Assembly: GCA_947041165.1 (NCBI GenBank)
Contig: CAMRCY010000022.1
Location: forward strand, 1-35,488
From: an uncultured Deferribacteraceae bacterium
GTDB lineage: Bacteria > Chrysiogenota > Deferribacteres > Deferribacterales > Mucispirillaceae
Reading direction: 5' to 3'
DNA length: 35,488 nucleotides
This document shows, piece by piece, positions 5,671-35,488 of the stretch. The translations under genes and the position numbers were made by a program. A model generated the notes under the pieces. That model searched no databases. It saw only the letters and a program-made list of their open reading frames with translations, and had not been told where the DNA came from. Numbering within the stretch: position 1 is the stretch's first letter; each line of letters begins with the position of its first letter.

Positions 5671-6723
5671 TTACTTAAATAGGTAGTAAAGTTCTGATTT
5701 TTTGTTCACAAAAGGTTTAAGCTCATCATAAGTGAATGAGATGTGTAGAGGATACCTAAAATTTTGATTCTGAAAAGTTATTCCCGAAGCATTAACATTG
5801 TAAATATATTGTGATTTAAAAAAGTCATACGATTCAAACTCTTCAAAAGAAGAAAAATCGCCATACTGTGTTTCTATTTTTTGCTTCATTAAGATGATAA
5901 ATTTTTCGTCATCTACAGAATAAATTAAATCGTCTATTCTCTCATTTAAGATTTTACCACTATTCAAACTATAAACAAGAGGAGTGTCGTCCATAATTGG
6001 ACGATTTGTAGCTGGAAAAGCCCATAATTTAGAAATAATGGATATAACATTGTTATCAATATATATCAACTCATAGGAAGAATGAACGCCCCACCCGTTA
6101 GACTCGCCATCAACATCTATATTTTTTTTCCAAACTGAATAGTCATCATTATAATCGTATGCTTTCCCAGATGTTTTTTCTAATTCTTTATTGACGTTTT
6201 CAATAGTAGCTATTTTTTTAGAATTAGCTATTTTAAGGATTTCATAACTAACACCGAAAGGAGGATTTTCAGAGTTATAATCAGTATCCTCAAAGGTATA
6301 TTTTACTATTTCTATCTCTTGTATTTTATTTTTTTTATTCGGCTTTACTTCAAAATTAAAACTCTTTTTCCCGTTACTCCAAGTGCCTTTAAACACCATT
6401 TTTTTATTTATCGTCCCTACAAATTCTCCTGTAGAATTATTATCATTATAATAATTACTTGAAAATTCTTTTAAGATAACTTTAGAGTTATTATCTGAAA
6501 CACTCTCTTTTAAATAAACAAAATCTCCGATATTATTATAGTAATACTTACCATCAACTTTCTTCGTACCCTCTTCAATAGTTAGATACATTGTGATAGG
6601 ATATTTATTATCAATAATTCCTTCCAAAATATGGAGAGTTTTTATCGACGTTATTTCAGGGTTAATTTGAGAAAAAAGTTGAGTGCTTAATATTAAAAAT
6701 AATAAAACAAAATATTTTTTCAT
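5671..6723 (-). CDS. Secreted protein with DUF3298/RsiV-like C-terminal region
   Basis: A 350-residue protein of unknown function with a clear signal peptide (charged MKKY, then a hydrophobic core ending near LFSQ at 16-19), so probably periplasmic. Residues about 30-125 contain repeated short G-x-Y/W beta segments (DGKYYYNNIGDF, FKGTWSNGKKSFNFEV). The second half follows the layout of DUF3298 (RsiV-like) domains: WGVHSSYELIYIDNNVISI, a SLNSGKILN segment, and near the end ISFTYDELKPFV. This domain assignment is from pattern memory only. The signal peptide style ending in FSQ is typical of Bacteroidota, and the gene splits an otherwise standard rhamnose operon, which hints at insertion or transfer. 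It follows rfbC by 104 bases. Confidence 0.6.
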   Translation of the reverse strand: MKKYFVLLFLILSTQLFSQINPEITSIKTLHILEGIIDNKYPITMYLTIEEGTKKVDGKYYYNNIGDFVYLKESVSDNNSKVILKEFSSNYYNDNNSTGEFVGTINKKMVFKGTWSNGKKSFNFEVKPNKKNKIQEIEIVKYTFEDTDYNSENPPFGVSYEILKIANSKKIATIENVNKELEKTSGKAYDYNDDYSVWKKNIDVDGESNGWGVHSSYELIYIDNNVISIISKLWAFPATNRPIMDDTPLVYSLNSGKILNERIDDLIYSVDDEKFIILMKQKIETQYGDFSSFEEFESYDFFKSQYIYNVNASGITFQNQNFRYPLHISFTYDELKPFVNKKSELYYLFK

Positions 6724-6827
6724 AGCATGAAACCCCTAATTTAATTTATTTAATAAAACATACTACAAAATGCTTTTAATATGAATTAATATTTCTCTAC
6801 AATGTATCATAATCTGTCTATTATATT

Positions 6828-7376
6828 TTACTCATAAGGAATGATATCTGAAAACTTCGGTAACACACTATCTTTATCAGAAAGAAGTATCTCTTTATGA
6901 TCTATCTTCCAATCAATACCTATTTCTAAATCTGAAAAAATCACTCCACCATCATGAGTTGGAGCATAAATATTATCACACTTATACGCAAATGTTGCAT
7001 AATCTGATAACACTACAAACCCATGTAAAAAACCTCGTGGAACATAAAACTGTCGCTTATTTTCACCTGATAATTCTACCGAGTATGATTTGCCATAAGT
7101 TTTAGAACCCTTTCTAAAATCCACTGCGACATCTAAAACCATTCCTTCAATCACACGAACAAGCTTGCTCTGAGTATATGGTGGTTTCTGATAATGTAAC
7201 CCACGCAATGTACCATATTTTGATCTTGATTCGTTATCTTGAACGAACGTATCTTTGATGCCGTACTCAGCTAGTTTTGCAGTGCTATAACTTTCAAAAA
7301 AATAGCCTCTATCATCGCTGAAAATTTTAGGTTCAATAATTACAAGTCCATCTATGCCTGTTTCAATTATATTCAT
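6828..7376 (-). CDS. rfbC: dTDP-4-dehydrorhamnose 3,5-epimerase
   Basis: RmlC/RfbC epimerises C3 and C5 of dTDP-4-keto-6-deoxyglucose, third step to dTDP-L-rhamnose. The cupin-fold signature is complete: DDRGYFFESY (21-30), TLRGLHYQ with catalytic His61, a substrate-contacting Lys71 in SKLVRV, and LDVAVDFRKGSKTYG (81-95). Further on, FYVPRGFLHGF is the conserved beta-strand and loop. Length 182 is standard. A ribosome site (AAGGTG) lies about seven bases before the ATG. In the operon it comes after rfbA but is separated from it by 505 bases, most of which is the 13/26-bp repeat array; normally these genes are adjacent. Confidence 0.96.
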   Translation of the reverse strand: MNIIETGIDGLVIIEPKIFSDDRGYFFESYSTAKLAEYGIKDTFVQDNESRSKYGTLRGLHYQKPPYTQSKLVRVIEGMVLDVAVDFRKGSKTYGKSYSVELSGENKRQFYVPRGFLHGFVVLSDYATFAYKCDNIYAPTHDGGVIFSDLEIGIDWKIDHKEILLSDKDSVLPKFSDIIPYE

Positions 7377-7511
7377 TCAATACACCTTATATATATTAGG
7401 TTAGTTATTAAGAAATCGCTATTTTCCAATAACATCTATTTCAGAAACTTTATTCTCTTAAATTCTGCGAACCTATGTTTAACAACTTATACTAGATCAA
7501 TCTAATCTATC

Positions 7512-7875
7512 TAGCAACTTAGTCTAGCAACCTGTTCTAACAAATTAGTTTAGCAACCTGTTCTAGTAGCTTAGTCTAGCAACCCGTTCTAGCAACTTAG
7601 TCTAGCAACCTGTTCTAGTAGCTTAGCCTAGCAACCCGTTCTAGTAGCTTAGTCTAGCAACCTGTTCTAGTAACTTAGCCTAGCAACCCGTTCTAGCAAC
7701 TTAGTCTAGCAACCTGTTCTTGTAACTTAGCCTAGCAACCCGTTCTAGTAGCTTAGTCTAGAAACCTGTTCTAGCAACTTAGTCTAGCAACCCGTTCTAG
7801 TAGCTTAGTCTAGCAACCCGTTCTAGTAGCTTAGCCTAGCAACCCGTTCTAGTAGCTTAGTCTAGCAACCTGTTC
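7512..7875. repeat. Alternating 13-bp tandem array (14 x 26 bp) inside the rhamnose operon
   Basis: Exactly 364 bases = 28 units of 13 with no insertion or deletion. Two unit types alternate: A (TAGYARCTTAGYC) and B (TAGCAACCYGTTC), so the true period is 26. Variation is nearly all at a few C/T or A/G positions. Most unit junctions create CTAG, giving CTAG sites every 13 bases. Degenerate units extend a little to each side, and the right end reaches almost to the rfbA stop codon at 7882. No frame stays open usefully because 13 and 26 are not multiples of three. The rest of 7377-7881 shows no gene. Confidence 0.95.
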
Positions 7876-7881
7876 AACAAT

Positions 7882-8745
7882 CTACTTTAGCAACTTATGA
7901 AGGTATTGTCCGTATCCATTTTTTTCAAACAGTTTTGCACGCTCTAAAAGTTGACTCTCACTGATCCATTTATTTTCAAATGCAATCTCTTCCAAACACG
8001 CAACCTTCAAGCCTTGACGGTTTTCAATAGTATTTATAAATTGAGTAGCTTCCATCATACTTTCATGCGTCCCTGTATCAAGCCAAGCGTGTCCACGTCC
8101 TAATCTTTCAACTTTTAATTTTGAACGCTTTAGATACTCTTGATTAACTGACGTAATCTCAAGCTCTCCCCTTGCTGATGGTTTAATATTTTTTGCAATT
8201 TCTATCACATCATTATCATAGAAATATAATCCAGTCACAGCATAATTTGATTTTGCTATTTTTGGTTTCTCCTCAATTGAAACTGCATTAAAACTTTCAT
8301 CAAACTCAACAACTCCGAAACGCTCAGGATCTGATACATAATATCCAAAAACTGTCGCACCCTCTTCTCGTTTAACAGCGTTAGCTAACAACTCTGACAA
8401 TCCGTAACCGTAGAAAATATTATCTCCTAAAACAAGTGCCACATTATCATCTTTTATAAAAGTTTCTCCTATTATAAAAGCCTGTGCTAATCCGTCAGGT
8501 GATGGCTGAACTCTATACTCTATATTAATTCCAAAAGCAGAACCATCACCTAGCGTTCTGATAAATCCTGCTTGATCTTCGGGGGTTGTGATAATCAATA
8601 TATCTCTGATTTTTGCGAGCATTAAAACTGATAACGGATAATAGATCATCGGCTTATCGTAGATCGGAAGCAACTGTTTTGATACACCTAACGTCACTGG
8701 ATGCAACCTTGTTCCAGCTCCACCTGCTAATACTATTCCTTTCAT
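7882..8745 (-). CDS. rfbA: Glucose-1-phosphate thymidylyltransferase
   Basis: RmlA/RfbA joins dTTP and glucose-1-phosphate to form dTDP-glucose, the first and feedback-controlled step of rhamnose synthesis. The nucleotide-binding signature [11 protein letters not shown] is at 8-18, with [15 protein letters not shown] (23-37) following; LGDNIFYG near 107-114 carries the metal-binding Asp, and [11 protein letters not shown] is the late substrate-binding motif. Length 287 is standard for the short form. Its ATG is two bases past the rfbB stop, with a GGGGAT ribosome site inside rfbB, so the two are translationally close-coupled. Confidence 0.97.
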
Positions 8746-8747
8746 AA

Positions 8748-9836
8748 CTATATCCCCAATCGCTCTAATTTATATGAGCCATCTAATATATTTTTACACC
8801 AACTATCTTTGTTCGCGAGATACCACTCGATAGTTTTAACGATCCCTGTTTCAAAAGTTTCTTCTGGTAACCAGTTCAACTCTTTATGGATTTTTTTTGC
8901 ATCAATTGCGTAACGACGATCGTGTCCTGGACGATCTTTAACAAATATAATCTGCTTTTTATACGATTGACCATCTTCACGTTTCTGAGTTTTATCTAAT
9001 ATCTCACATATTTTATGAACAACAGTTATATTCTTCTTCTCGTTATGTCCACCTATATTATATGTTTCACCGATGCGTCCAGCTGTTGCAACTTTATATA
9101 ACGCTCTTGCATGATCATCCACATATAACCAATCTCGTATCTGATCCCCCTCTCCGTAGATAGGCAGATCATTGCCGTTTAATGCTGATAAAATTATAAG
9201 TGGAATTAATTTTTCTGGAAAATGATATGGTCCATAATTGTTTGAACAGTTAGTCACAACAACAGGCACTTTGAAAGTTCTGTTCCACGCACGAACAAGA
9301 TGATCGCTTGATGCCTTACTTGCTGAATATGGAGAGCTTGGAGAGTATTTAGTGTCTTCTGTAAATAATGATTTATCATCCACTAGATCACCGTAAACTT
9401 CATCTGTTGAAACGTGGTGAAATACATATCTTTCACTCGCTCTCTCCTCTTCTGATAGATTGAAATATAGCTTTCTAAAACATTCAAGCAAAGTGTATGT
9501 GCCGATAATATTTGTGTTTATAAAATCTGATGGAGAGTCGATAGATCTATCAACATGGCTCTCTGCTGCAAGGTGTATAATAATATTTGGTTTGAAATCT
9601 GTAAAGATTTTATCTATCACATCTTTATCACAGATATCTGCTTTTTCAAATCCATATCGGTTATTAGTAGAGATAGATTTTAAAGATTCTAAATTGCCTG
9701 CATAAGTTAGTTTATCAACTATTAATATATCATCTTTTTTCTCATTTATAATATACCTAGATAAAGCTGAACCTATAAAACCTGCGCCACCTGTAATTAA
9801 TATCCTATTTGGATTATCATTCAAATTATTCACCAT
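8748..9836 (-). CDS. rfbB: dTDP-glucose 4,6-dehydratase
   Basis: RmlB/RfbB is an NAD-dependent extended SDR that turns dTDP-glucose into the 4-keto-6-deoxy sugar. Starting at the ATG at 9836 the protein has 362 residues; an ATG at 9917 would add 27 hydrophobic residues absent from the family and would start in the putative -35 region. Visible motifs: GGAGFIGS (16-23), the catalytic Thr144-Asp145-Glu146 in STDEVYGD, and Tyr170-x3-Lys174 in [16 protein letters not shown] near the C-terminus is typical. It is the first gene of the rhamnose operon, with a likely promoter just upstream and an AGGT ribosome site nine bases from the ATG. Confidence 0.96.
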
Positions 9837-9880
9837 ATTTAAATACCTAAAAATTATTTTAATATCTATTAGAAAAGACA

Positions 9881-9909
9881 ATTTTATAATAATTTCTAGG
9901 TAATTGCAA
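9881..9909 (-). promoter_or_regulatory. Possible sigma-70-type promoter for rfbB
   Basis: On the minus strand, TTGCAA (9904-9909) is followed by a 17-base spacer and TAAAAT (9881-9886), five of six bases of the -10 consensus. It sits between the yjfB terminator and the rfbB ATG, which is where an operon promoter is expected because the terminator closes off the gene upstream. Confidence 0.45.
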
Positions 9910-9915
9910 GTATAC

Positions 9916-9961
9916 AAAAAAAAAGATATTGAAACGATAGAATTTCTATCATCTCAATATC
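9916..9961 (-). terminator. Intrinsic terminator of yjfB
   Basis: A strong hairpin: outer arms GATATTGA (9925-9932) and TCAATATC (9954-9961), inner arms GATAGAA (9936-9942) and TTCTATC (9944-9950). On the minus strand it is followed directly by nine T residues (A run 9916-9924 on plus). It begins 38 bases after the yjfB stop codon. Confidence 0.85.
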
Positions 9962-9998
9962 AATTTAATAATTACATAAAATATCAAATATTTTTAAA

Positions 9999-10190
9999 CT
10001 AAGCCATTATATCGATTGTTGTACCTTTTTGAGTACCCGCAGAAACAGATGCTCCTGAAGCTTTTGATACTGATGCTGCTGAATCGATAAGTTGTAATAT
10101 CGCTGAACCTTGAAGTTTAACAAAATCTTGTGATTTCTTTGCAACATTTGTTGCATATTGCATCTTTATTGCAGCTGAGCTAACGTCCAT
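9999..10190 (-). CDS. YjfB-family putative motility protein
   Basis: A 63-residue protein resembling the YjfB family (putative motility proteins, known from Bacillus and many flagellated bacteria; molecular role not established). It opens MDVSSAAIKM, has a small-residue-rich amphipathic helix region (KKSQDFVKLQGSAILQLID), and ends with the family tail G-x2-IDI. I start at the ATG at 10190, seven bases after AAAAGGAG; a GTG two codons earlier is less well placed. It stands alone, with an exact sigma-28 promoter at 10215-10241 and a strong terminator at 9916-9961, so it is expressed as a late flagellar gene if the organism has FliA. No signal peptide or membrane segment is seen. Confidence 0.75.
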   Translation of the reverse strand: MDVSSAAIKMQYATNVAKKSQDFVKLQGSAILQLIDSAASVSKASGASVSAGTQKGTTIDIMA

Positions 10191-10214
10191 ATGCACACTC
10201 CTTTTGATAACTAA

Positions 10215-10241
10215 TTATCGGCTATTAAAACAGATACTTTA
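10215..10241 (-). promoter_or_regulatory. Sigma-28 (FliA) class promoter for yjfB
   Basis: Minus strand reads TAAA (10238-10241), a 15-base spacer, then GCCGATAA (10215-10222): an exact match to the known TAAA-N15-GCCGATAA flagellar consensus. The transcript would start a few bases before the AAAAGGAG ribosome site (10198-10205). The adjacent gene is of a motility-associated family, which supports the call independently. Confidence 0.85.
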
Positions 10242-10425
10242 GTTATTAAAATGTGGAACTTAAGTCCATATTAAACAATATAGAATTAATTAAAAATATC
10301 GCAACTCATTAATCATAATCTTTTTAATAAAACACAACTTTCTAATCATATTTAGCCTGCAAACAAAACAACAGCTTTTAAATAATTTAGAGAAATCTAA
10401 GATTAAATTCAAGCTAACGTGCATG

Positions 10426-11979
10426 CTATTTATCGAACTTTAACTCGCCCGCCACAACCATTCGTTTAAGCTCTCTCTTTAAAACTTTACCCGTTGCAGT
10501 AAGTGGTAATGCTTCTAAGACATTTACATATCTAGGATTTTTGAATGTCGCAACACGAGAGCGTATATACTCTTTTATCTCTTTCTCAGTCACAGTTGCA
10601 CCCTCTACCAATTGAGCGTACGCAACAACAACTTCATCTTTATTAGCAGTGGTGATACCGATTACGGCAGCCGCCTCAATTTGAGGGTTTTCTAACATCA
10701 CATCCTCAATCTCACGAGGATAAATATTCATGCCTTTAGATATAATAAGATCTTTCTTTCTATCAACGATAGTTATATAATCCTCTGCATCCATCTTTGC
10801 AAAATCACCAGTGAAAAGCCAACCGTTCTTAATAGCATCATCTGTTGCTTTAGGCATTTTCCAGTAACCTTTCATTACGTTACCACCCTTAATAATCAAC
10901 TCTCCAACTTCACCGAGAGGTAACTCTTTCTCATTTTCATCAATAATCTTACCTTTAACATTAGGTAAAAGTTTTCCAACAGTTGACACTTTATTATTCT
11001 TAAAAGTGTTAAATGATACAAGTGGTGATGCTTCTGATAGTCCGTAACCTTCTAATACAGGAACTCCATATTTTGTCTTAAATGCGTTTAATGTTTCCTC
11101 AGAAATCGGTGCTCCACCTGATATATGTAGCTTTATAGGATAAACAAATTTTATAAACCATTTAGGAAATTTCGCCTTCACCAACGCTTGAAATATTTGA
11201 GGGACACCCAACATTACTCTTGGACGTTTAAAGATTAATATATTCCTAAATCTTTTTGTTCTAAGTTCTGTAACCGACTCTAATAATACTATCGAAGTAC
11301 CTATTGATATCGGATATAAAGTCGATGTTGTAAGTGTGTATGAATGAAATAGAGGTAGAAAAACTAAAAATTTCTCATCTTGTTTTATAGCGATACATTT
11401 ATCTATCGAATCCATATTGCTAATAAAATTGCCGTGACTAATCATAGCTCCTTTAGGAAATCCTGTTGTGCCTGATGTGTATATGAAAAAAGCTAAATCA
11501 TCAAATTCTGCTTCACATAAATATTCATCATCTGAATAACTCACTAACTCTTTATTGATATCTTTTGCCTTAAAAGTATTGTCGCCCCATGTATTAATAG
11601 ATGTAAGTCCTTTACAATGCTCTTTAAAGTATCCGATCATTTCTGCAAATTTTTCTGATGTGATTAATACCTTTGCTTCACTATCATTAATAATATATGC
11701 AATCTCAGAATCTATAAGCATGTGGTTGATAGGAATAACTATCGCACCTGCTTTTAATATAGAAAATATAGAAACTATATACTCAGGAGAGTTCTGCATT
11801 AGGATCGCAACTTTATCACCTTTCTTGATACCTAATCTTTCTAAATATCTTGCAAAACTGTTTGTGGTTTTATCAATTTCTGTGTATGAGTATTTTTTAT
11901 CATTAAAATATATTAGAGGCTTCTTAGATAATATTTTAGCTTGGCTTGTTAACATCAAACCTAAATTTTTAAACTTCAT
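10426..11979 (-). CDS. Acyl-CoA ligase (AMP-forming), long-chain fatty acid type
   Basis: A 517-residue member of the ANL superfamily, which activates a carboxylic acid to acyl-AMP and transfers it to CoA. The P-loop YTSGTTGFPKG is at 167-177, GYGLSEASP (A5 motif) near the middle, TGDFAKMD (A7) and DRKKDLIISKGMNIYPREIE (A8 hinge) follow, and the C-terminal catalytic Lys is in LPLTATGKVLKREL. Chain length preference is not visible. The start has an AAAGGGG ribosome site. It lies 111 bases downstream of bioY on the same strand, so a role in activating a biotin-related acid such as pimelate is conceivable but unproven; general fatty-acid activation is the safer reading. Confidence 0.88.
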   Translation of the reverse strand: MKFKNLGLMLTSQAKILSKKPLIYFNDKKYSYTEIDKTTNSFARYLERLGIKKGDKVAILMQNSPEYIVSIFSILKAGAIVIPINHMLIDSEIAYIINDSEAKVLITSEKFAEMIGYFKEHCKGLTSINTWGDNTFKAKDINKELVSYSDDEYLCEAEFDDLAFFIYTSGTTGFPKGAMISHGNFISNMDSIDKCIAIKQDEKFLVFLPLFHSYTLTTSTLYPISIGTSIVLLESVTELRTKRFRNILIFKRPRVMLGVPQIFQALVKAKFPKWFIKFVYPIKLHISGGAPISEETLNAFKTKYGVPVLEGYGLSEASPLVSFNTFKNNKVSTVGKLLPNVKGKIIDENEKELPLGEVGELIIKGGNVMKGYWKMPKATDDAIKNGWLFTGDFAKMDAEDYITIVDRKKDLIISKGMNIYPREIEDVMLENPQIEAAAVIGITTANKDEVVVAYAQLVEGATVTEKEIKEYIRSRVATFKNPRYVNVLEALPLTATGKVLKRELKRMVVAGELKFDK

Positions 11980-12059
11980 AAATAAACCCCTTTAAACTTT
12001 TTAACTACTATTAACCTTTAATAAGCGTACTTTAACTAAAGGTTGTGTGTCTATCATTA

Positions 12060-12075
12060 TACACGATTTCGTGTA
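12060..12075. promoter_or_regulatory. Perfect 16-bp palindrome between bioY and the acyl-CoA ligase
   Basis: TACACGATTTCGTGTA has seven-base arms and a TT centre. It lies 15 bases after the bioY stop and 80 bases before the ligase ATG. It is more GC-rich than its surroundings, as a repressor operator would be; as RNA it could form a short hairpin, but no T run follows on the minus strand. Confidence 0.4.
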
Positions 12076-12090
12076 AATTAATATTATTTT

Positions 12091-12633
12091 CTACTTAGAT
12101 AAAAATATCCTTTTTATAGCAGGTATTAAAAGGATCGCAATAATCATTTTAACTATATCAGGCAGTATGAACGGTAACACAGATACTTTTAATGCAGTAT
12201 CTAAATCCATAGCCTTATCTTGAATAAAATTTATATTGAAATAGAAATATATAGATCCAAATAAATATATGATACACAACGAAATAAACGCTGATAATAT
12301 GTAGCCATAAATATTGTCTATTCGTTTTGCAACAATCCCTGCTGGTATTACTGCAAATAAATAACCGATTAAAAATCCGAAAGATGGACGTAGGAAATAT
12401 GATATTCCGCCACCTGATGCAAAAATAGGTAAACCAATCAATCCTAAAACTAGATAGATTAAAACACCGTAAAACGATAATCTAGCTCCAAAAACAGCTG
12501 GGATAATAAATATAACAAGTAACTGCAATGTGAATGGTAGATAAGGATTAGGTATACGGATAAACGCAGAAATTGTAATCATCGCCGTGATTAAACCTAT
12601 ATATACTGGATATTTATATCTATCATTTTTCAT
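12091..12633 (-). CDS. bioY: Biotin transporter BioY (S component)
   Basis: BioY is the membrane substrate-binding component of energy-coupling-factor transporters for biotin. This 180-residue protein is nearly all hydrophobic, with about six membrane segments. The family signatures are there: an early FTLQLLVIFIIPAVFGAR stretch, and the biotin-binding loop GGGISYFLRPSFGFLIGY mid-protein. No ATPase or EcfT gene is nearby, so it either shares a general ECF module encoded elsewhere or works alone. GGAGAG precedes the ATG. Upstream (12659-12724) is a fragment matching its own C-terminal coding sequence. I saw no obvious BirA-type operator. Confidence 0.92.
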   Translation of the reverse strand: MKNDRYKYPVYIGLITAMITISAFIRIPNPYLPFTLQLLVIFIIPAVFGARLSFYGVLIYLVLGLIGLPIFASGGGISYFLRPSFGFLIGYLFAVIPAGIVAKRIDNIYGYILSAFISLCIIYLFGSIYFYFNINFIQDKAMDLDTALKVSVLPFILPDIVKMIIAILLIPAIKRIFLSK

Positions 12634-12658
12634 ATAAACTCTCTCCTAAAAATGACAA

Positions 12659-12724
12659 TTATTTCATTTTAAATATTTTTTTAATAACAACGATTAAGAC
12701 AATCGCAACAATAACCTTAAATGA
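12659..12724 (-). pseudogene. Remnant of a second bioY 3' end
   Basis: On the minus strand this stretch reads SFKVIVAIVLIVVIKKIF followed by KMK and a stop codon. The C-terminus of the intact bioY reads KMIIAILLIPAIKRIF followed by LSK and a stop. The two align without gaps, share about 13 of 21 residues, and both stop at the same place; DNA similarity continues across the stretch. A stop codon in frame lies directly upstream, and no more of the gene is visible. It ends 26 bases before the intact bioY start. Most likely a decayed tandem copy; chance similarity of two hydrophobic tails cannot be fully excluded. Confidence 0.55.
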
Positions 12725-12773
12725 TTATTTAAAATTATATACTAATTAATATATTTATAATAAGTAAAATATT

Positions 12774-14102
12774 TTACTCGATCTCTTCACCGAGCAATGA
12801 GTTAGGACGAGCTTCTAAAATTCTAACATTAACAATATCACCCATTTTTAGATCTTTAGTTGAACTAAATGCAACCCCTCTACTCTGCTCTGTTAAGCCA
12901 TGAAACTGACTATCATCTTTGCTTGATCTACCTGAAACCAATATTTCAAACTCTTTGCCGATAAGTTTAGCTAACTTAACCGTAACAATCTCATCTTTTA
13001 ACGCAAACAACTCAGCGAGCCTTCTTGACTTAGTTGCTTTATCTAAATCATCTTTATATGTCGCAGCCTTTGTGCCTGGACGTGATGAGTATTTAAAGGC
13101 AAACACATTATCAAAATCAACATAACGAATTAGATCTAACGATTGTTGAAACTCTTCCTCTGTTTCATCTGGAAAACCTATTATAAAATCTGATGAGAAA
13201 CTGATCTCAGGTATAACAGATCTTGCATAATCTATCTTGCTTTTATAATCCTCTACCGTATAACATCTATTCATCTTCTCTAAAATATTGTTAGATCCTG
13301 ATTGTGCTGGTAGATGAATATATTTGCAAACCTTATCAAGTTTCGCAATCGTATCAACTAAATCTTTATCAAAATCTTTAGGGTGTGATGTGATAAATCT
13401 TATCCTCTCTACACCCTCAATATCATTAACGTAACCTAAAAGCTCTCTAAAACCAACTAAACTGCCATCTGATAATTTGCCTCTATAAGAGTTAACATTT
13501 TGCCCTAGTAACATAATTTCTTTACTGCCACCTGCAATAAGTGCTTTGATCTCATCTGTGATCTCTTTAACTTCTCTTGATACTTCAACACCACGAACAT
13601 ACGGCACTATGCAATATGTACAAAAATTTTCACAACCTTTCATAATCGTAACTTGTGCAGAAATTTTACTTTTACGTTTAAACTTCTCTATCACAAATGT
13701 TTCTGTCATTAATGAAACATCAACAAATCTCTCACCTTCTAACGCTCTATCTATCAACTCATCAAAATTTGCAACAGCATCTGTGCCTATCACAAAATTG
13801 ACTAACGGGAAATCTTTTAATAATTGTTTACCTTGATCTTGTGCAACGCAACCTGTTAAACCGATCACAACATCTCTATCATTTCTTTTAAGATCTTTAG
13901 CTATAACACCTAAATAACTTGCAATCTTGATCTCTGGTTTTGCCCTTACTGAACAGGTGTTTAAAATTATAATCGTTGCTTCACGTGTATCTAATACTTG
14001 ATGATAACCTCTCATCTCTAATGATGATGAAATCCTCTCTGAGTCATACTCATTCATCGCACAACCGAATGTATATATATAATATCCTTTATCTAAATCC
14101 AT
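12774..14102 (-). CDS. miaB: tRNA-2-methylthio-N6-dimethylallyladenosine synthase
   Basis: MiaB is a radical SAM methylthiotransferase acting on A37 of tRNAs reading UNN codons. Counting from the ATG at 14102 (442 residues), the N-terminal auxiliary cluster cysteines are C14, C50 and C85, and the radical SAM triad is C157, C161, C164 in KGCENFCTYCIVPYVRG. A TRAM domain occupies the C-terminal 60 or so residues. The opening YYIYTFGCAMNEYDSE is typical of MiaB rather than RimO or MtaB. A GTG at 14117, overlapping the upstream gene, has better ribosome-site spacing and is an alternative start. It is the last gene of the heptose/sugar-transferase series. Confidence 0.93.
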   Translation of the reverse strand: MDLDKGYYIYTFGCAMNEYDSERISSSLEMRGYHQVLDTREATIIILNTCSVRAKPEIKIASYLGVIAKDLKRNDRDVVIGLTGCVAQDQGKQLLKDFPLVNFVIGTDAVANFDELIDRALEGERFVDVSLMTETFVIEKFKRKSKISAQVTIMKGCENFCTYCIVPYVRGVEVSREVKEITDEIKALIAGGSKEIMLLGQNVNSYRGKLSDGSLVGFRELLGYVNDIEGVERIRFITSHPKDFDKDLVDTIAKLDKVCKYIHLPAQSGSNNILEKMNRCYTVEDYKSKIDYARSVIPEISFSSDFIIGFPDETEEEFQQSLDLIRYVDFDNVFAFKYSSRPGTKAATYKDDLDKATKSRRLAELFALKDEIVTVKLAKLIGKEFEILVSGRSSKDDSQFHGLTEQSRGVAFSSTKDLKMGDIVNVRILEARPNSLLGEEIE

Positions 14103-14106
14103 GTAA

Positions 14107-15540
14107 CTAATATGCACCTTTCCTTTTTATTACTACTGTCGGAGTTAAAAACAGTATCGTTAAATCAAGCCAAACTGACCAGTTTAAAACGTACCATGTA
14201 TCTCTTGAAATTCTATAATCGTAATCTGTATCGCTTCTGCCTGATACCTGCCATAAACCTGTAATCCCAGGTCTTACGCACGTATAATAGGTTGCGAACT
14301 CTTTATAATATTTATCTATCTCTTCTTTAATAACTGGACGAGGACCTACTAAACTCATATCACCAACTATAACATTAATTATCTGTGGCAACTCATCTAG
14401 AGAACTCTTACGTAAAAAATTACCTATCCTTGTAACACGGGGATCGTTCTTTAATTTATACGAACTTTCCCACTCTAAACGAGCATCAGCATCATCTCTT
14501 AAAATAACTTTTAATCGCTCTTTCGCATCTATATACATTGATCTAAATTTTATAACATTAATCACTCGACCGTTTCTGCCTATCCGTGCATGAGTGTAGA
14601 AAGGTTTACCTTTTGATGTCATCATAATCGCTAACGCCATAATCGCAAAAAATGGGATGATAAACGGTAGCGATAAGATACATAAAAAAAGATCAATAGA
14701 GCGTTTTAACACTCTATTTATATAAGATTCAATATTGTTTTTAATCTCCAAATACGACAATTTATTCATAAGCGTTTCAACTGTTACCGCATTTGATAAA
14801 GCTAAACCCTCTGATGACGGAAGAAGTATAATTTTAGATAACGATATATGAAGTCTACCCATGAGTGAAGATAATTTATCGTTATCAACAGATGACTGTA
14901 TAATAATAGCTACAGTTATATTATTCTCTTTTACAATTTGCTCAACATTATCAACTATACCTAAAATATCTTTATCAGAATTATTACCCTCTTTCATCAA
15001 AACTTGTCCTTTGATATTGAGTGCTAGATTTTTCTCTTCATTAAACATTTTTAATATAGTTTGATACTCTGTGCCACCACCGATAATAATTGTGTTATCA
15101 TTAAAACTTCCATCTCTATAGATAACTTTTTTAAATATGTATCTGAACATAATCATCAAAACAACCGAGTATGAAAATATTAACATTACCATTAATCTTG
15201 AAATTTCATCTGTTGATTTTAAAATAGATACAAACGCAAACACAACTATAAATGCTACTATATTAGATTTAAAAACATCTCGTGCTTCCAACCAAAAAGG
15301 CATTTTTTTTACATATAACCCATTAGATATAACCATTAAAATGAGGACTGCAAAAACCCACCATAGATCTAATATGAAATATCCAAAATCAAACTGTAAC
15401 TCTATAATACCAAATATTTTTTCAGCCATTAAACGTGTGAAAAACGCAAGCACTACAGCTGTAACATAGGCACAAAAATCGGTTAAAAAAAGTGAAATAA
15501 TATAACCTATTCGACTATAATTATTTAACGGTTTTTTCAT
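14107..15540 (-). CDS. Undecaprenyl-phosphate sugar phosphotransferase (WbaP-type)
   Basis: A polyprenyl glycosylphosphotransferase that starts glycan assembly by moving a sugar phosphate (galactose in WbaP, glucose in relatives) from its UDP donor to undecaprenyl phosphate. Four N-terminal membrane segments (about residues 10-130) are followed by a cytoplasmic nucleotide-binding-like domain and a membrane-anchored catalytic domain from about 270. That domain has the hallmark motifs ARIGRNGRVINVIKFRSM, SSLDELPQIINVIVGDMSLVG, GPRP, and GITGLWQVSGRS. Length 477 fits the WbaP family. Its ATG overlaps the hldD stop (ATGA). Sugar identity is not certain; galE in the window would fit galactose. Confidence 0.88.
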   Translation of the reverse strand: MKKPLNNYSRIGYIISLFLTDFCAYVTAVVLAFFTRLMAEKIFGIIELQFDFGYFILDLWWVFAVLILMVISNGLYVKKMPFWLEARDVFKSNIVAFIVVFAFVSILKSTDEISRLMVMLIFSYSVVLMIMFRYIFKKVIYRDGSFNDNTIIIGGGTEYQTILKMFNEEKNLALNIKGQVLMKEGNNSDKDILGIVDNVEQIVKENNITVAIIIQSSVDNDKLSSLMGRLHISLSKIILLPSSEGLALSNAVTVETLMNKLSYLEIKNNIESYINRVLKRSIDLFLCILSLPFIIPFFAIMALAIMMTSKGKPFYTHARIGRNGRVINVIKFRSMYIDAKERLKVILRDDADARLEWESSYKLKNDPRVTRIGNFLRKSSLDELPQIINVIVGDMSLVGPRPVIKEEIDKYYKEFATYYTCVRPGITGLWQVSGRSDTDYDYRISRDTWYVLNWSVWLDLTILFLTPTVVIKRKGAY

Positions 15541-25059: not shown

Positions 25060-26208
25060 TTGACTAAGTTTGAAAATAGATTTAAAAATATTGATGAATA
25101 TAAAAGCATGGAGATCGGTTTTAAAAGAATTGACGAAGCTTTATCATTAATAAATTTTGATGAAAAAAAATTAGGCACAATAATACACATAGCTGGCACT
25201 AACGGTAAAGGATCAACTGCAACTTTTTTAAATCAAATTCTATCTAAAAATTATCTAAACACTGCTCTATTCACATCACCTCATATTATGAAAATAACTG
25301 AGCGAATATCTGTGAAAGGTAAAAATATATCAACCATAAAATTCAACTCTCTCTTTGATGAAAATATAGAAATTATCGATAAATGCAACCTTACATATTT
25401 TGAAGCAATCTTCTTTCTTTTTATCGTGCACACAATTAAAAGCAATGTTGACATCACTATATTAGAAACTGGACTAGGTGGAAAACATGATGCAACAAAT
25501 ACATCGTTAATAACTGATAAAATTGCAGTTTTTACATCTTTCTCATTAGATCATACTGAAATTCTTGGAGATAGTGTGTTTGGTATAGTTGATGACAAAC
25601 TATCTATCATTAGAGATTACAGCAAAAACTTTATAGGTATAAACCACGATCAAATCAGAAAACATATTAGATCTCAAACAGATGAAAACAACTTACTTTT
25701 TATAGAAGATAAAGATAGAGATAATAATCTATACCCATTTCCATATAATGAAAATTATGAACTCGCAAATAAAGTAGCCTCATATATATTAGGCGAATAT
25801 CTGCAAACCGATAACACACTTAAACTTCCAGAAGGAAGGCTTGAATATCACGACAATTTTATATTTGATGCAACTCATAATATAGATGGATTAATCAAAT
25901 TGATAAAATCTATTAATAGAGATGAGATCGGATACGTGATTTTTACATTAACATCAAATAGAGATGTTAACGCTTTTTTAAATGTATTAAGAAATATAAG
26001 CGACAATATCATCTTAACAACGATACCTGATCATCCGAGATCAATCGATGAAAAAAAACTAAATGACACTGATTGTAAAAGTTATATCTCTCCGATTGAT
26101 GCCTTAGAGTTTGCTAAAAATAATATAGAAAGTGGTAAACGAATTCTTATCTTAGGATCATTTTTTCTAATAGCTTACTATAAAAAGACTTTCGGTATAA
26201 AATCATGA
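25060..26208 (+). CDS. folC: Folylpolyglutamate synthase / dihydrofolate synthase
   Basis: FolC is a Mur-ligase-type ATP-dependent enzyme that adds glutamate to dihydropteroate and/or folates. P-loop GTNGKGST at 46-53, TSPHI soon after (folate-binding loop), LETGLGGKHDATN and FTSFSLDHTEILG are the family's ligase motifs, and FDATHN begins the C-terminal domain. At 382 residues it is slightly short. The start is a TTG with GAGAAAAG upstream; the first ATG (residue 17) would cut off the conserved N-terminal helix. It follows rsmA by 108 bases and overlaps lptD by four. Whether it does one or both reactions is not decidable here. Confidence 0.92.
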   Translation: MTKFENRFKNIDEYKSMEIGFKRIDEALSLINFDEKKLGTIIHIAGTNGKGSTATFLNQILSKNYLNTALFTSPHIMKITERISVKGKNISTIKFNSLFDENIEIIDKCNLTYFEAIFFLFIVHTIKSNVDITILETGLGGKHDATNTSLITDKIAVFTSFSLDHTEILGDSVFGIVDDKLSIIRDYSKNFIGINHDQIRKHIRSQTDENNLLFIEDKDRDNNLYPFPYNENYELANKVASYILGEYLQTDNTLKLPEGRLEYHDNFIFDATHNIDGLIKLIKSINRDEIGYVIFTLTSNRDVNAFLNVLRNISDNIILTTIPDHPRSIDEKKLNDTDCKSYISPIDALEFAKNNIESGKRILILGSFFLIAYYKKTFGIKS

Positions 26209-28394
26209 TTAATATAATTAAACATTGTAAAAATATATTTACAGTTACTATTATCTTATTAATAACCGCAAATGTTGCACACTCTCTAGATAAAGATGCA
26301 TATAAGTTATCAGCCGATAATGCATCGCTTATTGATAATAATACTTATATGGCAACGGGAGATGTGCTTTTAGAGGCAAACGGTATTACCGTTAAAGCAG
26401 ATTCTGTAAAATATTTTTTAGATAACAGCACGTTAAATGCAACTGGAAATGTTACATTGATATCTGGAACAAAAACAATTAATGCAGATGAGATTACGTA
26501 TAATATAGATAATGATACAGGACGAGCATCTAATGTTACTGGATATCTAGATCCTGATTATTACATATGCGCTAAATCATTTGAACAAACATCGCTTTCA
26601 ACATTTAATCTTGAAGAGGCAAGAATATCTGCTTGTCCTGGAGTTATCCCTGATTGGTCGTTCTACCTATATTCAGGAAAGCTAGATCTTGAGGGATCAG
26701 CTACAGCTAACCATATAACAATGGATATCTTAAACACACCTATATTATACTCTCCAAGATTATCATACCCGATAGCATCTAAAAGAAAAACAGGACTGCT
26801 AATGCCTGGTCTAGGTATATCTAGCACACATGGTACTTTTCTGTTAGCTAAATATTTTATAGCTCCAGATATAAATTATGATTTCACAATAGGACTTAAC
26901 GTATTTACATCAAGTGGAGCACAGCCGTCAGCTGAGTTTAGATACTCGCTTACTGAAAAATCAAACTTTTATGCAGCAGCTGAATGGATACATGATCTCA
27001 CAGATGAAACACAAAATGATGATAGATGGAATTATGTTTTAGTAAACTCATACTCTCCGATTGATGACCTAACAATATCATTAAATGCAAATGAAGCATC
27101 TGATTATTTATATGCAAGAAGTTACAGCACATACTCAATGTCTGAGTATTTTAAAAACAATAAAGAAAATTACTATCATCTTGAGGCTGCGATAAATTAT
27201 TTTTCAAGCTATATTAATGTTAATGTCGAGTATAGTAAAAACACTCAATATAGAGATCAACGTGTTGGTTATCAAAAAAATTATACAGAACTACTGCCAA
27301 CTATATCATTATATAAAACTATTCCAGTGCTACCGTTCCTTGTTCTATCATACGATGTATCTTATGAAAGAGTATCTACTCAAAATAAAGAACTTGGATA
27401 TGATAACACTTTACTATCAAACGATTTAGATAAGTATAATCGCCTCAATACAACATTTGATATTAAAGCACCTATAGATTTAAAGCTTGCTGTTATTACT
27501 CCATCAGTTGAGATCGGATACTCGCTATGGCACAATTATAATAAAGAATTTGATAAAACTCTTGAGAAAAAAGATCTATTAGGTGGTATAAATATTCTTA
27601 ATCCACATATGGCTCAAAGATATTACGCTTCATTTGGATTATCTTCTGCATTTAGAGAGTTATATAGAGAGTATAAATATTTTACACACACAATATTTAA
27701 TACAGTTTCGTTAAACTATCTTCCTGAACTATCACCTAATAATCAAATCATAAATTCTTCATTCGATAACCTTATACCTAATGGTGGTATAACATATAAA
27801 ATGATAAACTATTTTACAGCTAAAACATGGAACCATACAATAACATTATCTCAAGGTTTTGATTTTATTGATGCTCTTGAGTTTACCCCTTTAACAATAA
27901 ATATGATTACAAATGTGAACGATATTTTTATAAATATATTTGATATGGAATTTAGTTATTCAGAGAGCATAAATAAAGGGCACTCAGAGATTATGTTTCT
28001 CTCTAATCAGTTACGCTTCTTTGTTTTAAAATATTTTTATGCCGATACAACTTACGTACATGATAATAGAGTTGATAGTTTTTATAATACTTCAATATCA
28101 GTAAGTGCTGGGTTTAAGATATGGCGTATTGGTGGTAAAGCAAGCGCTACATGGCAAGGTGATAATAAGGACGGATTTAGTAATTTAAAATCAACATCAC
28201 AAGGTGTTGGCTTATCTTATCATGCAGATTGTTGGTCGATAGGTATTGACGTTGTACACGATCTATATACTACTAGTTTCGGATCAGGACAGAATTTAAA
28301 AGATGAGTATACTATATATTTAGCATTCTCTCTTAAAGGACTTATTGATAGTAAATTACAGTTTGATACATCAACTTTCACTCCTGTAAACTAA
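26205..28394 (+). CDS. lptD: LPS assembly protein LptD
   Basis: LptD is the outer-membrane barrel that, with the lipoprotein LptE, inserts lipopolysaccharide into the outer leaflet. A signal peptide (about 1-27) is followed by an OstA/LptA-like jellyroll domain (about 33-130: ATGDVLLEANGITVKADSVK and DEITYNIDNDTGRASNVTG) and then a long beta-barrel region to residue 729, alternating and aromatic-rich. RLSYPIASKRKTGLLMPGLG is the typical join between the domains. Cysteines after the signal peptide are few (C122, C144, C676), so any N-to-C disulphide would use the single C-terminal one, unlike the CC pair of E. coli. LptE is not recognised in the window. Confidence 0.92.
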   Translation: MINIIKHCKNIFTVTIILLITANVAHSLDKDAYKLSADNASLIDNNTYMATGDVLLEANGITVKADSVKYFLDNSTLNATGNVTLISGTKTINADEITYNIDNDTGRASNVTGYLDPDYYICAKSFEQTSLSTFNLEEARISACPGVIPDWSFYLYSGKLDLEGSATANHITMDILNTPILYSPRLSYPIASKRKTGLLMPGLGISSTHGTFLLAKYFIAPDINYDFTIGLNVFTSSGAQPSAEFRYSLTEKSNFYAAAEWIHDLTDETQNDDRWNYVLVNSYSPIDDLTISLNANEASDYLYARSYSTYSMSEYFKNNKENYYHLEAAINYFSSYINVNVEYSKNTQYRDQRVGYQKNYTELLPTISLYKTIPVLPFLVLSYDVSYERVSTQNKELGYDNTLLSNDLDKYNRLNTTFDIKAPIDLKLAVITPSVEIGYSLWHNYNKEFDKTLEKKDLLGGINILNPHMAQRYYASFGLSSAFRELYREYKYFTHTIFNTVSLNYLPELSPNNQIINSSFDNLIPNGGITYKMINYFTAKTWNHTITLSQGFDFIDALEFTPLTINMITNVNDIFINIFDMEFSYSESINKGHSEIMFLSNQLRFFVLKYFYADTTYVHDNRVDSFYNTSISVSAGFKIWRIGGKASATWQGDNKDGFSNLKSTSQGVGLSYHADCWSIGIDVVHDLYTTSFGSGQNLKDEYTIYLAFSLKGLIDSKLQFDTSTFTPVN

Positions 28395-32727: not shown

Positions 32728-32776
32728 GGTCTAGTTCATATAGATGATTTAGATTTTTATATTAATGGAGAGATCA

Positions 32777-33601
32777 ATGTCTTTTTTTGTATTAGATGAG
32801 AATAAGTGTAGACGTGACGGCGTGTGTATGGATGTTTGTCCAACAAAGATAATAAAACAAGAAGTCGGTGAGTTACCATATATCGCTGAAAAATCAGAGG
32901 CGTTTTGTATCGCTTGTGGATTATGTTATGCTTTCTGTCCACATGATGCGTGTTATGTTGAAAGTTTGAATAAAGATGAATTTATTCAGATTGATAAAAA
33001 TTTGAAAATATCAAACGATTCTGCTGTTCAATTTTTGAAATCAAGAAGATCAGTTAGAAAGTTTAAGAATAGATCTCTCGATCAAGAAGATCTTGCAACT
33101 ATTTTAGATACAGCAAGATATGCACCTTCAGCAAAAAATATGCAACCTGTAAGATGGATCGCAGTTAGAGGGTTCGATAAGATGAAAGAACTTGCTGAAC
33201 TGATGTATACATATTATGACTCTTTAGCAAGAAATAAAGATTTTTCAAAAGATGAAAGACTTCATGCGAAATTAATTTCATCAGCGTATAAATCAGGCAA
33301 CGATGTGTTTTTTAGAGGTGCACCAGATTTAATTGTTGCAGTTCTCCCTAAAGATTATAAATGGGCTCAAGATGGCGCTATCGCACTTACGTATATAGAA
33401 CTTGCAGCATCAGGTATAGGTGCAGGTTGTTGTTGGGCAGGATATTTTACAACTGCTGTAAATAACGATGAAAATATTAAAAAGTTCGTAGGACTTGCAG
33501 ATAGTGAAATTGTTATCGGTGGACAGATGATCGGATATCCAGTCTATAGAGCTAAAAATATCCCATCAAGAAAAAAATTAGATGTAAACTATATTGAATA
33601 A
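32777..33601 (+). CDS. Ferredoxin-nitroreductase fusion
   Basis: A 274-residue protein with an N-terminal two-cluster ferredoxin (C11, C17, C21 and C44, C47, C50, C54, in CRRDGVCMDVCP and CIACGLCYAFCP) and a C-terminal FMN-dependent nitroreductase domain opening with FLKSRRSVRKFKNR and RYAPSAKNMQP. Such fusions pass electrons from reduced iron-sulphur carriers to FMN to reduce nitro-compounds, quinones or unknown substrates. The ATG at 32777 has GGAG six bases upstream; the ATG at 32765 overlaps that site and is less likely. The likely regulated promoter fits a stress- or substrate-inducible enzyme. Confidence 0.88.
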   Translation: MSFFVLDENKCRRDGVCMDVCPTKIIKQEVGELPYIAEKSEAFCIACGLCYAFCPHDACYVESLNKDEFIQIDKNLKISNDSAVQFLKSRRSVRKFKNRSLDQEDLATILDTARYAPSAKNMQPVRWIAVRGFDKMKELAELMYTYYDSLARNKDFSKDERLHAKLISSAYKSGNDVFFRGAPDLIVAVLPKDYKWAQDGAIALTYIELAASGIGAGCCWAGYFTTAVNNDENIKKFVGLADSEIVIGGQMIGYPVYRAKNIPSRKKLDVNYIE

Positions 33602-33712: not shown

Positions 33713-33777
33713 TATCACAATATATTTATCATAGAGCCTATATCACGATATATTTATCATAGAACCTATATCACAAC
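33713..33777. repeat. 28-bp tandem repeat, about 2.3 copies
   Basis: Copies start at 33713, 33741 and 33769 (third partial). The first two differ at two positions. They lie directly upstream of the ribosome site of the LRR lipoprotein gene. Confidence 0.7.
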
Positions 33778-33798
33778 ATTTAATCGGAGATTTATTTT

Positions 33799-35208
33799 AT
33801 GAAATTTCACACGTTAAAATCATTTATGTTACTACTTCTGTCTGTAATGATTTTCACAGCGTGTGCTAATAAGAAAACTAACGGAGGCGATACACCATCA
33901 ACTCCTCCAATTCCTAGCTGTACAATGACAGGCACAGCTATTAAATGCACAAACATTTTAGTAGATGATGATGTTGACTTTATTAATACTCATAAAGCAA
34001 CTATCACATCACTTGATTTAACAGCGACACCAAATATGATAACACAGAAACAGTTAGAGAATATCACATCAACAGATTTCCCTCTGTTAGATAATCTATC
34101 TATATCGAACAATCAGTCCCTAACAAGCTTAAACCTAGCGAAATTTCCTACTCTTACAAAACTAAGTGCAATATATATAAATAATATTACTGGGTTTAAT
34201 GATATTAAAAAAAATCTCACAACTATAGAGGTATCTATAGAAAGTGGAATACCTCTTACCGATATAACTAATTTAACCGACAAAACCAAAGTAACTACAT
34301 TGGCGTTATATTTGTATACAGATACATCACTTGATATATCCGAATTTACGAACCTGACGGAGCTTACGTTAACTAATCTAAGTGGATTAACAGGACTTGA
34401 TCTATCTGCACTCACGAACCTTACAACACTTAAGGTAGATGGTCTAAATCAACTAACAACACTTACTCTACCAACTAAACTCACGAACCTTACGAAGCTT
34501 ACGTTAATTAATCTAAGTGGATTAACAGGACTTGATATATCTAAATTCACGAACCTTACGAAGCTTCAGGTATATGATCTAGCCAAATTAACAACACTTG
34601 ATCTGTCGGCACTCACGAACCTTACGTACCTTTATGTAAGTTGGCTTGGTAGCGTATCAACACTTGATCTAGCGAAACTCACGAACCTTACGAACCTTAC
34701 GGTATGGGGTCTAGGTATAACAACACTTGATCTATCTGCACTCACGAACCTTACGAACCTTAGGGTACGTGATCTAGGTATACAAACACTTGATATATCT
34801 GCACTCAAGAAACTTACAACACTTAATGTATATGATCTAGCCAAATTAACAACACTTACTCTACCAACTAATGCACCGAACCTTACGAGCCTTAATCTAG
34901 TTCATCTAGCTGTATTACAAAAACTTGATCTATCTAAACTCACGAACCTTACGTACCTTGATTTATGGAATCTAGGTATAGCAACACTTGATCTATCTAA
35001 ATTCACTGCTAGTTTAACAACTTTAGATTTAAATATGAACACTGCCCTTAATCAATTAAATCTAGGAACTAAACCATTTGTAAATAAATTAACCGTAACA
35101 GGATTTGGAAATTCAGCGTTGGACAGTATTAATACAATCACTCACCCTACCAGTAAAATAAAGATAACTTTAAAATCTCCAGATATTAATTATCCTCCTA
35201 AACCGTAA
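33799..35208 (+). CDS. Leucine-rich-repeat lipoprotein
   Basis: A 469-residue surface or periplasmic lipoprotein of unknown partner. Signal peptide MKFHTLKSFMLLLLSVMIF is followed by lipobox FTAC, giving a lipidated Cys22, then a Gly/Pro/Thr/Ser linker. From about residue 70 it is leucine-rich repeats of 21-23 residues with the frame L-T-x-L-D-L-S-x-L-T-N-L-T-x-L; about ten strong copies span 180-410. The DNA frame is very uniform (CTCACGAACCTTACG recurs many times), whereas the four or so residues following each (KVDG, QVYD, YVSW, TVWG, RVRD) vary. GGAG precedes the ATG. Repeat uniformity suggests recent expansion or gene conversion. A partial paralogue begins at 35420. Confidence 0.85.
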   Translation: MKFHTLKSFMLLLLSVMIFTACANKKTNGGDTPSTPPIPSCTMTGTAIKCTNILVDDDVDFINTHKATITSLDLTATPNMITQKQLENITSTDFPLLDNLSISNNQSLTSLNLAKFPTLTKLSAIYINNITGFNDIKKNLTTIEVSIESGIPLTDITNLTDKTKVTTLALYLYTDTSLDISEFTNLTELTLTNLSGLTGLDLSALTNLTTLKVDGLNQLTTLTLPTKLTNLTKLTLINLSGLTGLDISKFTNLTKLQVYDLAKLTTLDLSALTNLTYLYVSWLGSVSTLDLAKLTNLTNLTVWGLGITTLDLSALTNLTNLRVRDLGIQTLDISALKKLTTLNVYDLAKLTTLTLPTNAPNLTSLNLVHLAVLQKLDLSKLTNLTYLDLWNLGIATLDLSKFTASLTTLDLNMNTALNQLNLGTKPFVNKLTVTGFGNSALDSINTITHPTSKIKITLKSPDINYPPKP

Positions 35209-35230
35209 TATTTTTTTTAACCTATATACC

Positions 35231-35260
35231 GAACGCTCTGAAAATGGGCGTTCTTTTTTT
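35231..35260 (+). terminator. Intrinsic terminator after the LRR lipoprotein
   Basis: GAACGCTC (35231-35238) pairs with GGGCGTTC (35246-35253, one G-T pair) around a seven-base loop, followed by seven T residues. It lies 22 bases past the stop codon. Confidence 0.9.
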
Positions 35261-35419
35261 ATCTACTTTTTCATATAATTTTTATATTTTCTTTATATAT
35301 TTTTATACGATTAATGATATAATAAATATGACATTATATGAGTTATAATTTTAGTAGAGATATGTTTGTGGCAGATATATTTTGCGATATTTAGCGATAT
35401 TTAATTGGAGAATTATTTT

Positions 35420-35488
35420 ATGAAATTTCACAAGTTAAAATCATTTATGTTACTACTTCTGTCTGTAATGATTTTCACAGCGTGTGCT
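35420..35488 (+). CDS. 5' end of a second LRR-type lipoprotein (truncated by window)
   Basis: The last 69 bases encode MKFHKLKSFMLLLLSVMIF followed by TACA, the same lipoprotein signal peptide as the gene at 33799. The two differ by a single base in 69 (Thr5 to Lys). The ribosome site region (TTAATTGGAGA-TTATTTT versus TTAATCGGAGA-TTATTTT) is also conserved. The rest lies outside the window, so it is not known whether it too carries leucine-rich repeats. It starts 211 bases after the stop of the first copy and beyond that copy's terminator, so it must have its own promoter. Confidence 0.85.
   Translation, partial: MKFHKLKSFMLLLLSVMIFTACA

Follow-up and report, generated by a model that had tools for sequence, protein, structure and literature searches.

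Why should two adjacent lipoprotein genes begin with almost identical leaders when the DNA further upstream of each is different, and does this likeness point to a larger family of genes that recombine? The question is raised by the right end of the window, i.e. the whole stretch of 35,488 nucleotides analysed here, which is one whole contig (C22) of a 2.14-Mb draft genome (G000) and ends inside the second of the two genes. The G+C content of the window is 31.1%, the same value as is given for M. schaedleri in the consulted part of PMC12887300. The features of the locus are as follows.

32765–33601, plus strand: left flank, an ORF with ferredoxin-type Cys motifs that we take to be nitroreductase-like, conserved and syntenic in genome G003
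33713–33776, plus strand: 28-bp direct repeat in 2.3 copies upstream of gene 1 (repeat search)
33774–33798, plus strand: ribosome-site region of gene 1 (comparison with genes 2 and 4)
33799–35208, plus strand: gene 1, encoding an LRR putative lipoprotein of 469 residues (ORF, translation, Pfam)
33799–33867, plus strand: leader of gene 1, a lipoprotein-type signal peptide ending in ..MIFTAC-A, with Cys as residue 22 (by eye)
33813–34322, plus strand: 510-bp stretch putatively common to gene 2 (55-base contig-end matches, assembly-graph reasoning)
33919–34340, plus strand: N-terminal cap, which contains a Cys pair (residues 41 and 50), together with the initial repeats, which are irregular (translation, alignment, model)
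34348–35006, plus strand: LRR array with units of about 21–23 residues (63–69 bp; repeat analysis, model strands)
35209–35419, plus strand: spacer separating gene 1 from gene 2, with 88% identity to the one that separates gene 2 from gene 3
35231–35253, plus strand: terminator-like hairpin after gene 1, of the same version as after gene 2 (position after the stop codon, sharing)
35420–35488, plus strand: leader of gene 2, where the contig stops, with 68 of 69 bases as in gene 1 (comparison, 55-mer count)

The prediction that the two leaders differ by one base in 69 was borne out (33799–33867 against 35420–35488), the single difference being C/A at base 14, which changes Thr5 to Lys. A search of the genome for the 55-mer from base 15 onward, as had been suggested, found two copies, both in the window; this count remained two with three mismatches allowed and was zero for a reversed-pattern control, so the likeness of the leaders is not due to chance. 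The ribosome-site regions are alike as well (21 of the 25 bases directly before the ATG), and that of gene 1 is closer still to the corresponding region of gene 4 (25/25). Further upstream the DNA of the two genes does differ, with 43 matches in the 100 bases before the ATG in an ungapped comparison. This observation can be refined, as the DNA upstream of gene 2 has a relative of its own: the 211-bp spacer in front of it has 88% identity to that between genes 2 and 3 (179 identical columns out of 203 aligned, with 22 gap columns).

Each of genes 1–4 has its own terminator-like hairpin, one version being shared by genes 1 and 2 and another by genes 3 and 4. The hairpin counts barely exceed those in shuffled sequence (1 versus 0.5, and 5 versus 2.0), and the assignment therefore rests on the position after the stop codon and on the sharing of versions. 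Promoter-like matches were fewer than expected from shuffled sequence (6 versus 10.8, and 17 versus 28.6), and hence no promoter is claimed. The 28-bp direct repeat is possibly regulatory or length-variable. The ORF on the left flank had no match in NCBIfam.

How gene 2 continues can be read from the ends of two contigs. The last 55 bases of C22 equal positions 33813–33867 of the window, the first 55 bases of contig C18 equal positions 34268–34322, and both matches stop at exactly 55 bases; judging from the behaviour of assembly graphs, such ends fit a k=55 assembler that stopped at an impassable repeat. This argument applies to G000 only, as the contig ends examined in genomes G001 and G002 share no exact repeat of at least 15 bases with the other loci compared from their own genomes. 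C18 starts inside an LRR gene, with an open frame from base 3 that is the frame expected from gene 1. The sister genome G003 has a nitroreductase-like gene, LRR genes, and thioredoxin with further genes, in this order, on one 72-kb contig. Because of the 55-base contig ends and this synteny, C18 most likely continues the contig of the window, in which case gene 2 most likely encodes about 603 residues. Gene 2 would then match gene 1 over about 510 bp (33813–34322), a stretch that appears to have been merged in the assembly, possibly with the loss of small differences.

The suspicion that the two genes belong to a multigene family extending beyond the window proved correct. Genes 2–4 lie on C18, where gene 3 (1083 residues from its ATG) and gene 4 (672 residues) follow gene 2, while gene 5 (723 residues) was found on contig C34. 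Further copies thus exist, and the second gene, as reconstructed through C18, would be a paralogue of the first. All five genes have a lipoprotein-type leader, the Cys pair is present in all four genes with an assembled cap (genes 1, 3, 4 and 5), and an LRR array and a similar C-terminal part are found in the four complete genes and in the assembled part of gene 2. Beside gene 5 on C34 there is a lipoprotein-like ORF of more than 1112 residues (locus L010, 4664–7999) with tandem repeats of about 114 residues (by eye) and no Pfam family above cut-off, and a GLUG-motif protein also adjoins this region.

The original prediction also took likeness at the 5' end to be a property of the family, and this is true only for genes 1 and 2. 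While the leader dS of this pair is 0, that among genes 1, 3 and 4 is 0.34–0.46 (about 0.45 for pairs 1/3 and 1/4, 0.34 for 3/4). Along the alignment of genes 1, 3 and 4, the linker after the leader (columns 23–60) has a dS of 0.47–0.58 in the three pairs, the cap (columns 60–110) only 0–0.07, columns 110–160 have 0.13–0.22, and the start of the repeats (column 160 onward) 0.27–0.36. The closest pair over the C-terminal 90 codons is 1/2, with a dS of 0.077 and 91% DNA identity, against 0.17–0.29 for the other pairs of genes 1–4. Gene 5 is far from the others in every segment (dS from about 0.85 to saturation). From this segmental pattern it follows that the 5' end as a whole is not the conserved part; both the degree of likeness and the closest partner vary by segment.

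Genes 1 and 2 share exact blocks of 43–73 bp at offsets of 0, +6, +333 and +402 bp, showing that their repeat arrays have been rearranged relative to each other. Exact blocks of at least 40 bp are absent from pairs 1/3, 2/3 and 2/4, and pairs 1/4 and 3/4 have one each (41 and 71 bp, respectively), both in the cap; shifted array blocks are therefore seen only for pair 1/2. Break-point (maxchi) tests gave low permutation values for each of the pairs 1/3, 1/4 and 3/4 (0 to 0.003, 300 shuffles), although uneven constraint could also produce such values, and the longest identical run was significant in one of these three pairs (0.066, 0.068 and 0.0015). The recent recombination that had been proposed is nevertheless well supported, namely by the putative 510-bp tract common to genes 1 and 2, by the mosaic of spacers and terminators, and by a leader deletion shared by two genes in G003 (see below).

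What kind of proteins are encoded? The gene 1 product scores above the Pfam cut-offs for LRR_EndoS (50.6 bits, cut-off 27.9) and LRR_4 (39.6 bits, cut-off 27), and LRR_EndoS was also above cut-off in all five further proteins scanned. A structure predicted from the single sequence (pLDDT 74.6, pTM 0.75) is a solenoid with one strand per unit and strands about 22 residues apart. The signal sequence ..LSVMIFTAC|A, with Cys at residue 22, was located by eye and is presumably a lipobox, judged against the usual consensus. The proteins are probably lipid-anchored, and their most likely location would be the outer membrane, with exposure at the surface.

The repeat analysis covered 111 units from eight genes or gene parts, spacings outside 20–24 residues being left out. 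In a position profile of 32 units of exactly 22 residues from genes 1–4, the most variable positions are 6, 8, 10, 11, 13, 14 and 16, while positions 4, 5, 7 and 18 are near-fixed. In the model, the strand at residues 210–214 corresponds to positions 6–10 of the unit starting at residue 205, so that variable and conserved residues alternate along the strand. The variation from unit to unit would accordingly fall on the exposed face of the predicted strand. A repertoire of ligand-binding proteins or adhesins is the most likely candidate role, although the shared LRR fold points to no particular binding partner.

The distribution of the family was examined in a sample of 50 genomes from the phylum, probably Deferribacterota; 39 of them have a completeness of 90% or more and a contamination of 5% or less. 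The N-terminal 212 residues have a match in all four sampled members of the genus, whereas the other 46 genomes, some of which are incomplete, have none. With the whole protein as query, 5 of the 30 nearer genomes had a match, the fifth being weak (2e-8) and from another taxonomic family. A scan of named genomes, a set that may omit the genome of the window or near ones, gave five loci with 29–40% identity (two in Clostridia, and one each in Bacillota, Planctomycetales and Cuspidothrix).

Within the genus, the number of genes between the conserved flanks varies, from four in G000 (one of them reconstructed in part) to two long genes and a truncated one in G003. Both long tandem genes of G003 (contig C7, locus L050, 7934–9600) are without most of the signal peptide owing to the same deletion, around which their DNA is near-identical before it diverges, and their frames are open. 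The third copy is truncated (L050, 11807–12520, compared with L052, 2178–3899): when set beside G001, it lacks the 3' portion as far as the thioredoxin side. Among the LRR copies found in G003, none was seen to have an intact lipoprotein leader, and this loss could represent decay. G001 has a second array of three LRR genes at another place. The corresponding region of G000 (contig C2, locus L075, 12187–12808) is a 0.6-kb spacer without LRR genes that keeps, among the matches listed, two pieces resembling DNA between or beside the three genes of G001, which is consistent with a loss of this second array from G000 by deletion. A BLASTN comparison of the second G001 locus with a stretch of G003 contig C20 revealed no common LRR region other than two short hits among the matches listed. 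This same stretch of C20 (locus L057) carries, at about 3828–4484, the remnant of a decayed LRR gene with several in-frame stops.

The strongest result is that near-identical alleles of the locus occur in different species, with dS of about 0.01–0.04 in the locus versus 0.4–1.0 for genes on the same contigs. Gene 4 and its counterpart in G002 differ by one repeat unit and have a dN of 0.048 and a dS of 0.032 over 494 codons, while on the same contigs of these two genomes three genes that we take to encode thioredoxin, a TIGR02757-like protein and a radical-SAM protein have a dS of 0.42–0.53 and a dN of 0.03–0.06. Similarly, G001 and G003 have a dS of 0.026 (337 codons) and 0.009 (153 codons) in two LRR stretches versus 0.79–0.99 in two flanking genes. 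When set against the lowest flank dS, the counts of synonymous differences have a binomial P of at most 1.4e-29, with sites taken as independent. The near-identity of G000 and G002 is not general, as two other places that were compared, including gene 5 (89%), are 75–89% identical among the matches listed.

The edges of these stretches can be followed in windows of 100 columns. Between G000 and G002, 14 of 21 windows from the LRR gene to the end of the downstream spacer are at least 96% identical (range 85–100%), versus none of 19 from the end of thioredoxin on (62–95%), where the next spacer has 62–83%. For G001 and G003, 18 of 25 LRR windows reach at least 98%, versus none of 24 flank windows (flank range 67–96%), and here the edge is less sharp, the identity dropping over the final portion of the third gene (0.95, 0.92, 0.78, 0.45). 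In their flanking genes, G001 and G003 do not pair as closest relatives, so that tree and locus disagree. Among the matches listed, the 5' part of the first gene in G001 corresponds to the first gene of G003 (98% over 464 bp), and its 3' part to the second and third genes of G003 (94.7% over 1.9 kb), a pattern such as unequal crossing-over would give.

The ratio dN/dS in the LRR alleles is near or slightly above 1, and roughly at least ten times that in the flanks. It does not exceed 1 significantly (gene 4, P = 0.07; the G001/G003 stretches, P = 0.11 and 0.17), and selection for diversity is therefore not proven. Among the C-terminal pairs, two of six had P below 0.05, uncorrected. A test for positive selection at the exposed LRR positions between orthologues was not significant (P = 0.34).

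Taken as a whole, we think it probable that this locus is a recombining tandem array of LRR lipoprotein genes, in which conversion, shuffling of the repeat arrays and exchange between species all take part. The window would hold the left part of an array of at least four such genes, reaching from the nitroreductase-like gene to thioredoxin. Gene conversion or unequal crossing-over would account for the likeness of genes 1 and 2 between the beginning of the leader and roughly codon 175; within the repeat arrays, units would have been gained, lost and shifted; and stretches of the locus may have been exchanged between species of the genus. An account with fewer events is that genes 1 and 2 arose by a recent tandem duplication of a whole gene, without conversion, and that only the array of this young pair was rearranged. 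The lowest C-terminal dS of the four genes, the common terminator version and the shifted exact blocks of this pair all agree with it. However, the stretch from the leader to codon 175, apparently merged in the assembly, is far more alike than the C-terminal part (91%), and the spacer upstream of gene 2 groups with that of gene 3 (88%) rather than with the sequence preceding gene 1 (53%), so that at least some uneven recombination after the duplication is needed; duplication by itself we regard as unlikely, while taking it seriously. Conservation of the leader through constraint on the signal peptide, a view to which the recognisable leader type in gene 5 and in the G001 genes lends itself, was rejected as very improbable: the 23 leader codons of pair 1/2 are free of synonymous differences, while pairs 1/3 and 1/4 have a dS of about 0.45, and constraint alone does not hold synonymous sites identical in a single pair.

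An artefact of assembly or strain mixture, by which collapsed or chimeric contigs would account for both the second leader and the near-identity between species, also has to be weighed, as the genomes are drafts, probably of metagenomic origin. In G000, G001 and G002 these genes are interrupted by contig breaks; the ends of C22 and C18 coincide with 55-base repeats, as would be expected of a k=55 assembler; and of the four alleles that make up the cross-species pairs, two are situated at the end of a contig (C29 and C93). We nevertheless hold such an artefact to be improbable: both leaders are on one contig with different DNA upstream, the G003 locus lies within its 72-kb contig with both flanks syntenic, the contig ends examined in G001 and G002 share no exact repeat of at least 15 bases with the other loci compared from their genomes, and the alleles of different species are 95–98% alike and not identical, one pair differing by a whole repeat unit. 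Chimeric assembly as the source of the near-identity between species is hereby partly, not fully, countered. It might also be supposed that the locus serves antigenic variation, with leaderless copies as silent donors for an expressed copy, in line with the long tandem genes of G003, which are open in frame without most of their signal peptide, and with the recent date of recombination. In G000, however, the leader is complete wherever the start of a copy can be seen, and a terminator-like hairpin follows each of genes 1–4, giving no sign of a single expression site, and the loss of leaders in one genome may be decay, the third G003 copy being truncated; silent cassettes are thus quite improbable. 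The reading as a recombining array that exchanges between species can be extended to a genus-wide pool of modular LRR binding proteins, in which caps and leaders would act as recombination handles, modules would be shuffled, variation would fall on the concave face, and alleles would pass between species through homologous recombination, the remainder of the genome staying diverged. Lamprey variable lymphocyte receptors follow a comparable modular logic. The extension can be put forward tentatively, although we think it doubtful.

In comparison with known systems, the internalins of Listeria (InlJ, InlA, InlF) are exported LRR proteins, as is proposed here. They are the best sequence matches in the PDB (4fmz, 2e-16; 3bz5, 1e-15), 3bz5 is also the best Foldseek match, and InlJ is a structural match among many other LRR proteins (Z 25.6, rmsd 4.6, 361 residues aligned). 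LPXTG is the C-terminal cell-wall anchor of class 1 internalins. The present proteins differ in being putative lipoproteins from a genome with an LptD-like protein, in the absence of a C-terminal LPXTG (gene 1 ends in ..SPDINYPPKP), and in NCBIfam scores far below the internalin cut-offs (InlJ 42.5 of 1700 bits, InlA 22.2 of 1600 bits). BspA-type LRR proteins are surface proteins of host-associated bacteria, from which the family also differs: LRR_5 (PF13306) scores below cut-off in gene 3 (22.0, cut-off 27.7) and is not among the gene 1 matches up to E 0.1. Three Leptospira proteins, LIC11098, LIC12759 and LIC10831, have the highest structural similarity among the solved bacterial LRR proteins listed (Z 28.2, 27.5 and 26.3; rmsd 3.6, 3.7 and 2.6; 365, 367 and 321 residues, respectively), Z differences under 1 counting as ties, with 23–27% identity to gene 1 in the structural alignments.

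The PFam54 proteins of Borrelia form an unrelated family without LRRs. Their genes likewise form a head-to-tail tandem array of lipoprotein genes, variable in number and with conserved end genes, which evolved by duplication, loss, pseudogene formation and some transfer between species, and which is plasmid-borne, unlike the present one (consulted part of PMC11389397). The same behaviour is seen here in the variable gene number between the flanks and in the recombination between copies and species, as read from draft assemblies to which the artefact discussed above applies. Internalins show the same kind of evolution, to judge from the title of a 2006 paper cited in the consulted part of PMC3556495, while for the Leptospira LRR proteins the consulted part of PMC11674859 has no converting array. 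The kind of evolution is thus already known; the signal of exchange between species is unusually clear. No description of the family was found in the literature searched (titles and the beginnings of abstracts, with subscription papers mostly outside it). The consulted part of PMC5285517 names ankyrin and TPR repeats, its single mention of leucine referring to an amino-acid transporter, and neither "leucine" nor "LRR" occurs in the main text of PMC12887300.

The bacterium of the window probably belongs to a genus of Mucispirillaceae other than Mucispirillum, relatives of which inhabit vertebrate guts, and is probably gut-dwelling itself. If this placement is right, the family is a direct candidate for a role in adhesion, in recognising the host, or in escaping immunity or phages. 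Among the genomes sampled, the repertoire is confined to one genus of the phylum (4/4 versus 0/46 genomes), and there was little on recognition of host surfaces by Mucispirillum relatives in the consulted parts of the literature. Swapped LRR alleles between diverged flanks would be a clear natural example of exchange of a surface locus between species, and the locus also illustrates how short-read assemblies break at recombining repeat genes. Elsewhere in the window, positions 4605–15540 on the minus strand hold a cluster with rmlD, a dTDP-glucose dehydratase and a WbaP-type sugar transferase, which likely makes a surface polysaccharide. The LptD-like protein is encoded at positions 26205–28394; its score of 88.8 bits is below the family cut-off, and its presence suggests an outer membrane with LPS.
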